Source: Pseudomonadota bacterium
GTDB taxonomy: Bacteria > Pseudomonadota > Alphaproteobacteria > GCA-2746255
Assembly: GCA_040752895.1 (NCBI GenBank)
Contig: JBFMHN010000006.1
Span: 1-64,000, forward strand
DNA length: 64,000 bases
Direction of reading: 5' to 3'
The first letter of the stretch is position 1, and every line of letters begins with the position of its first letter. Below the pieces are notes generated by a model that was given only the letters and a program-made list of their open reading frames with translations, had not been told where the DNA came from and searched no databases. The position numbers were made by a program, and so were the translations under genes. Shown here piece after piece: positions 13,036 to 19,134 of this stretch.

Positions 13036-13098
13036 TGCGCGCAAAAGCCGAGAGTGCCAAACGCACCCAAACGGGCGACCGCCCGGGAGGATGAAACC

Positions 13099-13995
13099 AT
13101 GCCGAACGTACCTGCGATCTTAACCACGACTCTCCCCTTCTCGCCGGAGAACAACCTTGGCCGCTATCTCCGGGAAATTCGGAAATTCCCGATGCTGGCG
13201 CGCGAGGAGGAATACATGCTGGCCAAACGTTTCGCCGAACACGGCGACACCGAAGCGGCCCATCGCTTGGTGACGAGCCATTTGCGTCTCGCCGCCAAGA
13301 TCGCCATGAGCTACCGCGGCTACGGATTGCCGCTGGCCGACCTCATCTCGGAAGGCAACGTCGGAATCATGCAGGCGGTGAAACGGTTCGACCCGGAGCG
13401 CGGCTTCCGGCTGGCGACCTATGCGATGTGGTGGATTCGCGCCTCGATCCAGGAATACGTCCTGCGCTCATGGTCCCTCGTGAAGATGGGGACGACGGCC
13501 GCCCAGAAGAAACTTTTCTTCAACCTGCGGCGGTTGAAGGGCCAGCTGCAGGCGATCGAGGAAGGCGATCTCTCGCCCGAAATCGTCACGGAAATCGCTG
13601 ACCGTCTCGACGTGCCCGAAAGGGAAGTCGTCGAGATGAACCGCCGCATGGCGAGACAGGACCATTCCCTGAACGCGCCCCTTCGCGTGGACGGCGAAGG
13701 GGAATGGATGAACTGGCTCGAGGATGACCACCCCGATCAGGAAACCGCCTTCGCCAAAAAGGAAGAATCATCGAACCGCCACGCTTTCCTGAAGGCAGCG
13801 ATGAAAGGCCTGAACGACCGCGAGCGCCACATCCTGACCCAGCGTCGCCTGCGCGACGATCCGCTGACGCTCGAGGAATTGAGCAAGGAATTCAACATCT
13901 CGCGCGAGCGTGTCCGCCAGATCGAAGCGCGGGCTTTCTCAAAACTCCAGAAAGCGGTGAAGAACGCCGCTATCGAACAACAGATTCACGCGTAA
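13099..13995 (+). CDS. rpoH: RNA polymerase heat-shock sigma factor, sigma-32
   Basis: 298 residues. Region 1.2 is NLGRYLREIRKFPMLAREEE. Region 2 includes LRLAAKIAMSYRGYGLPLADLISEG and FRLATYAMWWIRASIQEYVL. The RpoH box QKKLFFNLRRLK separates it from ordinary sigma-70. Region 4 has LTLEELSKEFNISRERVRQIE. It directs transcription of chaperone and protease genes. GGGAGG precedes the ATG at 13099 by eight bases, which excludes the start 15 codons earlier. Heat-shock targets in this window could include hsp20, ftsH and pepF, though hsp20 has a sigma-70-like promoter with CIRCE. Confidence 0.97.
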   Translation: MPNVPAILTTTLPFSPENNLGRYLREIRKFPMLAREEEYMLAKRFAEHGDTEAAHRLVTSHLRLAAKIAMSYRGYGLPLADLISEGNVGIMQAVKRFDPERGFRLATYAMWWIRASIQEYVLRSWSLVKMGTTAAQKKLFFNLRRLKGQLQAIEEGDLSPEIVTEIADRLDVPEREVVEMNRRMARQDHSLNAPLRVDGEGEWMNWLEDDHPDQETAFAKKEESSNRHAFLKAAMKGLNDRERHILTQRRLRDDPLTLEELSKEFNISRERVRQIEARAFSKLQKAVKNAAIEQQIHA

Positions 13996-14018: not shown

Positions 14019-14048
14019 GGAAGCAGAAAACTCAGGTTTTCTGCTTCC
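14019..14048. terminator. Perfect hairpin between convergent rpoH and membrane-protein gene
   Basis: A perfect 12-bp inverted repeat GGAAGCAGAAAA / TTTTCTGCTTCC with a 6-nt loop. It contains the last codons and stop of the minus-strand gene (stop at 14032-14034) and lies 24 bp after the rpoH stop. It probably ends rpoH transcription, though the T-run is inside the stem, not after it. Confidence 0.5.
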
Positions 14049-14532
14049 GCTGTTGCAGGTCGCCCGCGATCTCCTCGCCCCATTCCCCGATCAGCTCTTC
14101 CCGAAGCCTGGCAAGCTTTTCTTTCCGTTGCGCGGCGCGCATTTCCACGACCAGCGCGACGACATGAGGCACCCCGAAATAGAGCAGCCAACCAAGGCTC
14201 GCCGCCCCGTACATGACCGCCCAGGAATAGGGATCCGAAAGCGCTGCGAAGGCAGCGTCCGCCTGCCCCGCTCCGCCGACCACCCACTGATTGAGCAGGT
14301 AAGGAGCGACACCGACCAGATTCATGGCGAGGACGCATTTTCCGGCCACCTTTCCCACGTTGCGGTCAACGACGAAGGCAATCCAGGAAGGCAACAGGCC
14401 AAGGACCAGGAGGATGACGCTTGGAAGCGCCACGGTCGCAGCGCCCGAAAGCACGAGAATGCCAACGATCCACCAAAGTCCCATGTGTATGGTCCCGCCG
14501 GGTGCCTGTCTCTTGATCGGTTTTCTTGCCAT
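14032..14532 (-). CDS. Polytopic membrane protein of unknown function
   Basis: 166 residues. AGGGGG precedes the ATG at 14532, favouring it over the earlier in-frame start. The N-terminus is basic (MARKPIKRQAPGG). Three or four hydrophobic segments follow (WWIVGILVLSGAATVAL, VILLVLGLLPSWIAFVV, CVLAMNLVGVAPYLL, SWAVMYGAASLGWLLYFGV). The C-terminus is charged and helical (EMRAAQRKEKLARLREELI), predicted cytoplasmic. It lies 10 bp downstream of the pseudokinase gene on the same strand, so the two probably work together. I do not recognise the family. Confidence 0.7.
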   Translation of the reverse strand: MARKPIKRQAPGGTIHMGLWWIVGILVLSGAATVALPSVILLVLGLLPSWIAFVVDRNVGKVAGKCVLAMNLVGVAPYLLNQWVVGGAGQADAAFAALSDPYSWAVMYGAASLGWLLYFGVPHVVALVVEMRAAQRKEKLARLREELIGEWGEEIAGDLQQRKQKT

Positions 14533-14542
14533 GCCCCCTACT

Positions 14543-16566
14543 CTAAATGCGTTGCGAAAGTAGAACGCCAAGAGCGATCAACGCGATCAGCATGGAAAAT
14601 CGCGCCGCGAGCAGGCGGCCCATGACGAGCGCGCTCAGCGACAGCCCCTGCAATTGCTGTTCGATCTTCGCCGTCTCTGCAACCATTCGCATGAACTCAC
14701 CGCGCGCCATCGCGTAGGCGCGGTGGTCGGCCCGTCTGCGAGCCGGGTTGCCGACCAGGTTGTAGAGTTCGACGAGACTGCCTCTTACGGCGATCTGCTC
14801 CACGGATTCTTCCAGTTGCTTGCGCGTGGCCTGGTTGTGATAACTCGAAATGACTGGCGGCAGCATCCTCAACATCCAACCGGCGAGCCCGGGCACCTTC
14901 GCGGGCCCGTAACGGTCCTGAAGGCTGGCCAGCAGGCCGAGAACCCCGAACACGCGTTCGGCGGAACCTCTTGGCGAGACGAGCGAAGCCAGAAACGTAT
15001 CCACCTTGCCGGGAAAATGGGTCGCAATGAAGGCGGTGATGTGGTTGTCCATCGGTTCGACCATCCTCTGCAACTGGCCGGTTGCCGCCTCGAGCGTCGA
15101 CAGCAGTTCGGAAACGCCGGTGCAATACCTTGGCAGGACGAGCGTGCTTAAGCACCGCGCGCCGGGAACCAGTTCGTAGAGGCAGCGCTCGAGCCCGAAG
15201 CCAAGCCCGCGGCGGCCGATGAAGTGCTGAAGCCGATAGAGGCGCTGCAGAAGCTTGCGGTTGGCGACAATCGGTCCCTGCGCCGTTACCCAAAGCTGGG
15301 CGAGGTTGAGGCGGATAACCTCGGTGAAATTATGGCGTATTTCGTCGTCGGCGAATCCGACGGCCAGCATGGTCCCGAGGCCGTCGATGGTGGCGGAAAA
15401 ATTCCGGTAACGGATCGGCGCTTTCGGATCGAGCAGAATGGCGACCCGCGCGACAAGCTGCTCGGCCGAAATTGTCGAACTCCGGCTCGCCACGACCTCT
15501 TCCATCAAGTAGCGCGCCATTTCGGGATTGACAATGCTGCGCACCACCCAGGATTCGAAGCGGGTTTCTCGGATAGCCCGCGCAGCGTCCTGGGGGTGTT
15601 GCGTAAAGGCGTACGCCAACGAGCGTCCGGTGACGTGCGGTTCTTGCCGGAACGTGAAGACATGCGGCGCATGATCCGCCACGTTTGGCAAATTAGGGTC
15701 GTGATATTCGTCCAGCCAGCGTTCGACGCGGTCCAGAGTCCATCGCCGTTCCCGCGCGTCCATCAACAGGCCTTTGAGCAGTTCCATGGCGCGCAGTGAG
15801 AGCGCGCGCTTGCCCACCAAAAAAGCGTAGGAACTCTCCTGTATCTTGCGTTGCAGGATGGTTTCGCCGCTGGCCTCGTTCGTGGGCAGACTTCCCAAAA
15901 GAAGCGACAGTACCGTGACCCCCAGCGCATAAAGATCGTCGGCGATTTCCCCCCGGCCGCGGCCAGCCGGATGGGCAAGGCCGCTTTCGATCGTCTCGAA
16001 AAGAATAGGCTGGGCGTATGCGGGCGGCTCCACGGCGAATTCGCCAAGCACGGCCCGCTTCTCCGTCTTATCGTCGGCAAAAAAAGATTGTCCGGCCGGA
16101 TGCCGCGATGGGTGAGACCGGAAACGTCGAGCTGACGCAACACCTCTACCGCCGGGACGATGACGATGGATGTGACTTCCTTCTCCGTCATCGGCGGCCC
16201 CGGCTCCGTGAGCGAGCGCCAAAGCCGGCGACCCGAACGCTCATAGATCAAGGCCGGCTGTTCGCCGCGGTCGGGAGACCATTCGACGACCCCCTCTTCC
16301 ACCAGCTTCGGGACGCCGCGGAGATCGTTCTGCCGCAAATGCGCGAGAACCTGCCAGCGCAGCGGCAGCCCGGGATCGCATATATAGGCAACCAGCGGCC
16401 TATCGGCGTTTCGGATGTCCTCGGCCCGGTAGGCCTTCGCGGTGAAGGAGTCGTGGTCTGGCAGAGCCGCTTCCCGAAGGATGCGGTACCGCCCTTTTAC
16501 CAAAACTTCGCCGCCGGTAGGCGTTATTCCCTGTGTAAGGGGTTCCGCCTGTTCCGTTCCCACCAT
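14543..16566 (-). CDS. Tail-anchored protein-kinase-like protein (predicted pseudokinase), frame interrupted at a T7 run
   Basis: One gene read in two frames. Frame 1 runs from 16566 to about 16080 and frame 2 continues to the stop at 14543; adding one T to the 7-T run (A7 at 16079-16085, plus strand) joins them into about 674 residues. The N-lobe starts GRYRIL (25-30). The beta-3 lysine position reads VAYI, the catalytic loop is HRGIRPDN (153-160, HRD Asp replaced by Gly), and the DFG region reads LGEFA. All three catalytic signatures are degenerate, so I predict a pseudokinase. A helical region of about 390 residues follows and ends in a tail anchor (FSMLIALIALGVLL). It lies 118 bp after purA. 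The frame break may be a sequencing error, decay or programmed frameshift. Confidence 0.75.

Positions 16567-16684: not shown

Positions 16685-19134
<2,450 letters not shown>

Follow-up and report, generated by a model that had tools for sequence, protein, structure and literature searches.

A conserved tail-anchored pseudokinase and its partner membrane protein: an apparently undescribed two-gene module of Alphaproteobacteria

Results

Locus and reading frame

Two adjacent reverse-strand genes, one for a putative tail-anchored pseudokinase and one for a small membrane protein (the partner), lie between purA and an rpoH-type sigma factor gene in the window (the whole stretch of alphaproteobacterial DNA that was analysed, 64,000 nucleotides). 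The features of the locus are as follows.

13054..13995, forward strand: rpoH-type sigma factor gene, the convergent downstream neighbour, conserved
14532..14032, reverse strand: partner gene (166-residue membrane protein), directly 3′ of the kinase gene
16566..14543, reverse strand: gene of the tail-anchored pseudokinase, split in two ORFs here; a read-through product would have about 674 residues
15686..16509, reverse strand: predicted pseudokinase domain (by mapping from relatives, about residues 20-294), from a profile match to solved kinases and the model of a relative
14747..15685, reverse strand: predicted all-helical domain (residues about 295-607)
14546..14746, reverse strand: long helix predicted at the C-terminus, of which the last 19 or so residues form a single membrane anchor
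16079..16085, reverse strand: run of seven T (A7 on the forward strand), where the kinase frame is lost
16685..18040, reverse strand: purA (adenylosuccinate synthase), the upstream neighbour, conserved

The coordinates, the reverse strand, the ten-base gap from the kinase stop (14543) to the partner's ATG (14532), and the position downstream of purA are all as given in the original prediction, which had been made from the sequence of the window. That prediction also took the merged kinase for an intact gene, and here it has to be corrected: in the window the gene consists of two overlapping ORFs in different frames (15763..16566 and 14543..16222), and the frame is lost in the T run at 16079-16085, from which one T is missing. 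Since the kinase frame is continuous, at about 670-700 residues, in three congeners and in almost every other relative, the break in the window is a lesion or an assembly error, and the gene has been either recently inactivated or mis-assembled at the homopolymer. A true recent pseudogene would fit the loss of just one base in the T run, beyond which the sequence stays in one frame and is otherwise undamaged; however, homopolymers are common sites of sequencing error, and about 2 kb show no other damage, with the partner gene intact as well, so that we consider inactivation quite possible but somewhat short of an even chance. Programmed frameshifting at the T run was rejected: the congeners' bases differ there and the frame is read straight through, which makes a conserved slippery site, and hence a programmed shift, unlikely.

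Kinase domain

The domain is predicted to adopt a two-lobed protein kinase fold (PF00069 superfamily). A family profile built from 21 relatives matched solved kinases at E = 3e-12, and PF00069 was found at E<=0.1 in 18 of 21 family members, with the C-terminal ORF of the window scoring 15.5 bits against PF00069, under the Pfam cut-off of 31.7. We used the AlphaFold model of one relative (L058; pLDDT 89.6, pTM 0.83) as a stand-in for the window protein; it has a kinase fold to about residue 300, and Foldseek with this model returned kinases from E 4e-9, all kinases among the matches listed. Matches to the NCBIfam models LanL and MAD6 were set aside, as they fall far under their cut-offs and are confined to the kinase region in the proteins listed; neither Pfam nor NCBIfam holds a specific model for the pseudokinase family.

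Catalytic positions were tabulated for 108 sequences, and the register was taken from HMMER alignments with solved kinases. The beta-3 lysine position is isoleucine in the window (I62, in VAYI), and over the 108 sequences it is mostly I (60) or V (38), followed by L (4), with K only once. The catalytic loop of the window reads H-R-G at residues 153-155; the first two positions are well kept in the family (H in 105 of 108, R in 95), and the position of the HRD aspartate, 155, is A in 70, S in 21, G in 8, N in 4 and D in one. Both readings, HRG and VAYI without the beta-3 lysine, are those of the original prediction. The catalytic-loop asparagine (N160 in the window) is kept in 107 of 108 sequences (99%), arginine stands at the catalytic-loop lysine position in 102, and the DFG aspartate position is D or E in 102 (D 72, E 30, followed by Q 3 and P 3). 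In the window this last position is E176, and the triplet reads E176-F-A rather than the proposed GEF, because it is the acidic residue that lines up with the aspartate of DFG in those alignments; the three congeners keep HRG but not GEF. No glycine-rich loop stands out in the same table, and R70 is 97% conserved.

By its residues, then, the protein is classified as a pseudokinase on two of three criteria, with the metal and phosphate ligands of the C-lobe predicted to be kept. The view that every catalytic landmark is degraded was right for the beta-3 lysine and the HRD aspartate but too strong as a whole, since the loop asparagine and the acid at the DFG position are retained. Orthologues with an intact K/HRD/DFG set, which the original prediction had named as a refutation, were not found among the 108 sequences, in which a single HRD aspartate and a single beta-3 lysine occur; the prediction passes this check.

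The retained residues (the loop asparagine, the arginine after the HRD position and the acidic DFG residue), together with R70, could also belong to an active but atypical enzyme, one that catalyses another reaction, relies on another basic residue, as in WNK, or employs a different base. WNK3, a kinase without the usual lysine, tops the Foldseek matches listed, although the order of kinases in that list means little, and degraded kinases such as SelO and SidJ can carry new chemistry, which sets a precedent (PMC12599244). Against this stand the loss of the HRD aspartate in 107 of 108 sequences, the lack of a conserved lysine at beta-3, and the lack of a discernible glycine-rich loop; on balance we think such an enzyme rather improbable.

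Helical domain, membrane anchor and partner

The model of the relative L058 continues past the kinase fold with an all-helical domain to about residue 618 and then a single 66-residue helix (619-684) that runs into the membrane anchor. The helical domain carries two family motifs, GxGxERxLYExNxxxxCxS and DRHxxAF, and neither PDB nor Pfam yielded a convincing relative by sequence (the matches were two marginal ones in PDB, at E 0.018 and 0.24, and scattered Pfam matches in single members). The expected C-terminal anchor of the kinase was recovered: in 78 relatives the hydrophobic stretch is trailed by a median of 3 residues.

The partner is, as expected, a small polytopic membrane protein with a charged tail. 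Its AlphaFold model is all-helical and confident (pLDDT 89.9), and the protein probably has four membrane segments with both ends in the cytoplasm, an arrangement that fits the charge pattern over 42 relatives (positive-inside: an N-terminus and first inner loop rich in lysine and arginine, and an acidic outer loop). The invariant positions of the alignment include N71, W83, G114, P122 and, near the C-terminus, a WG pair. No PDB match below E 1 was obtained for the partner fold, and no Pfam family common to the partner members was found.

Distribution and synteny

We searched 289 alphaproteobacterial genomes and found the kinase in 99 and the partner in 101; all 99 kinase genomes have both, and the partner is absent from 188 of the 190 genomes that lack the kinase. 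The two partner-only genomes are both incomplete, and one of them has the partner at a contig end. Relatives in which the partner is missing from beside the kinase would have spoken against the pairing, and such cases are few: the partner lies directly 3′ of the kinase, on the same strand, for 100 of 110 kinase copies, and some of the other ten are at a contig end or have their partner on another contig. Similarly, 71 of 80 loci from named genomes (Magnetospirillum, Azospirillum, Telmatospirillum, Rhodospira, Roseospira, Novispirillum, and many metagenome-assembled genomes) have the partner next door; the nine others, one of them at a contig end, come mostly from relatives of Magnetospirillum and Phaeospirillum. 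The two genes are a class-wide alphaproteobacterial module whose members co-occur obligately.

The usual gene order is purA, kinase, partner, and then rpoH and rluD in the opposite orientation, and the purA/rpoH synteny is fixed in distant families. Because this neighbourhood is itself conserved, the two genes might be adjacent by synteny alone and share no common function; the 99 out of 99 co-occurrence argues against this, as do the multi-copy genomes, in which the two genes have often been duplicated together in tandem or have moved as a unit away from purA, and we regard the idea as highly improbable. Co-divergence of paralogous pairs (r 0.88) was rejected as support: of 576 within-genome pairings, 30 score this high, counting the observed one, and two related genomes supply most of the signal.

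Some loci depart from the pairing. At L148:6002-8017 and L146:6573-8618 a second copy of the kinase stands with no partner beside it, and in two genomes (G017 and G149) the partners outnumber the kinase, four to one. A solo partner-type membrane protein (L160:6378-6899) follows, after 75 bases, a 994-residue ORF resembling a sensor histidine kinase; an ORF like a response regulator lies upstream. In a phylum-level sample of 249 genomes there was one match outside the class, a partial one that spans the kinase region plus some of the helical domain (G297:C21:438319-439179, profile positions 104-396, within a 907-residue frame).

Functional hints

FlhA is found in 89 of the 99 kinase genomes and in 77 of the 190 others (odds ratio 13, from counts uncorrected for phylogeny), and at the family level, likewise uncorrected, in 59 of 62 carrier families and 46 of 94 others; the odds ratio for a control, PhaC, is 2.4. 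In one genome (L139; G135:C2:119000-138000), two tandem pairs immediately precede flhA, a MotA-like gene and a sigma-54 activator. Some copies of the pair adjoin histidine kinase genes; for example, in Azospirillum ramasamyi (L169, NZ_CP029830.1) it lies away from purA, beside an annotated sensor histidine kinase and near phaC.

The enrichment of FlhA beyond the PhaC control, and the tandem pairs next to flhA, would fit a module linked to the flagellum or motility that places, assembles or regulates flagella. On the other hand, the counts ignore phylogeny, the flagellar neighbourhood was seen only once, 77 flagellated genomes do without the kinase, and ten kinase genomes lack FlhA. Five of these ten are 98-100% complete and all five keep the pair, most at the purA/rpoH locus (in G084, G115 and G211 it stands beside both purA and rpoH; in G063 and G198 there is an rpoH-type gene downstream and another gene upstream). 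A flagellar role is unlikely on this evidence, and the co-occurrence is suggestive only, as a hint to the pathway. Chemotaxis was dropped as a common factor of the FlhA-less carriers, CheA being present in 4 of 10.

Discussion

Proposed role

We see the module most probably as a non-catalytic membrane scaffold that may bind nucleotide. As a whole, the best explanation is that a non-phosphorylating scaffold or switch and its partner form one inner-membrane complex, a reading in which our confidence is evenly balanced. The kinase and the partner would touch through the anchor, the conserved cytosolic helix of the partner, or both. The pseudokinase would not phosphorylate; its pocket, which keeps phosphate and metal ligands, may bind nucleotide or another ligand, and the protein would work as a scaffold or an allosteric switch, in broad terms like EssB/YukC in type VII secretion, with the helical domain recruiting cytosolic clients. 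That the module serves signalling is something we infer. More tentatively, as a possibility we rate well below that of the scaffold complex, the pair could be an ancient, undescribed alphaproteobacterial membrane complex in which the kinase domain senses nucleotide state by means of its retained metal and phosphate ligands and relays it through the partner, with a role in the control of the cell surface or motility.

The unit occurs in about a third of the sampled alphaproteobacterial genomes, usually beside purA and rpoH, and it offers a clear target: the partner is present in every sampled carrier, and the tractable genera Azospirillum and Magnetospirillum carry the unit.

Comparison with known pseudokinases

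Little work has been done on bacterial pseudokinases, and, as far as tested, the present family is not among the seven that have been published. We found no paper on the alphaproteobacterial pseudokinase and its partner in the mostly open-access literature that was searched; two Azospirillum records annotate the pair as ‘serine/threonine protein kinase’ and ‘hypothetical protein’. The main claim of the original prediction, a conserved pseudokinase that is anchored C-terminally and tied to a second membrane protein, is supported, and its further statement that a two-gene tail-anchored module of this kind has no described function agrees with the literature searched. The two-gene module is real and conserved, apparently undescribed, and set apart from five of the seven published families.

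The seven bacterial families are those named in a 2025 review (PMC12599244); five of them (GLW, DYD, ActPs3, DLHK and CP1) each fail a tested feature, and ActPs1 and ActPs2 differ in taxonomic range, being mostly actinobacterial, with family-specific deletions and insertions (PMC12599244). In the GLW pseudokinases of proteobacteria, GLW replaces HRD (PMC12599244), whereas here HR(A/S/G) stands in place of HRD and the poly-Leu beta-3 motif is absent. DYD pseudokinases have arginine at the beta-3 lysine position (PMC12599244); none of the 108 sequences has arginine at position 62. The MviN/MurJ pseudokinase of mycobacteria (ActPs3), to which the original prediction had likened the kinase, is similar in being a pseudokinase linked to a membrane protein, but all three of its catalytic motifs are degraded (PMC12599244). 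Here the acid of DFG and the loop asparagine, lost in MviN, are kept, the proteins end at one anchor with no flippase domain or fusion, and the phylum is a different one; the comparison is not supported. DLHK proteins keep the HRD aspartate and have no membrane segment, whereas here the aspartate is lost and a C-terminal anchor is predicted; CP1 proteins, which are COG3899 fusions, also lack a membrane segment, whereas here, besides the anchor, there is a helical region without a Pfam match.

Hanks-type Ser/Thr kinases (PF00069) are alike in fold and in the overall order of motifs, but the beta-3 lysine and the HRD aspartate are missing here. In EssB, of type VIIb secretion, an outer domain follows the membrane segment, whereas almost nothing follows the anchor in the present proteins. 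They differ from EssB/YukC, too, in the 300-residue helical domain and the dedicated partner, probably of four segments, and no type VII secretion genes were recognised in the neighbourhoods read. What the two systems would share is a membrane-bound, cytosolic pseudokinase that serves as a non-catalytic scaffold (PMC12599244), and we take EssB/YukC as the closest functional model for the pair, likened to it by function rather than as an established relative.
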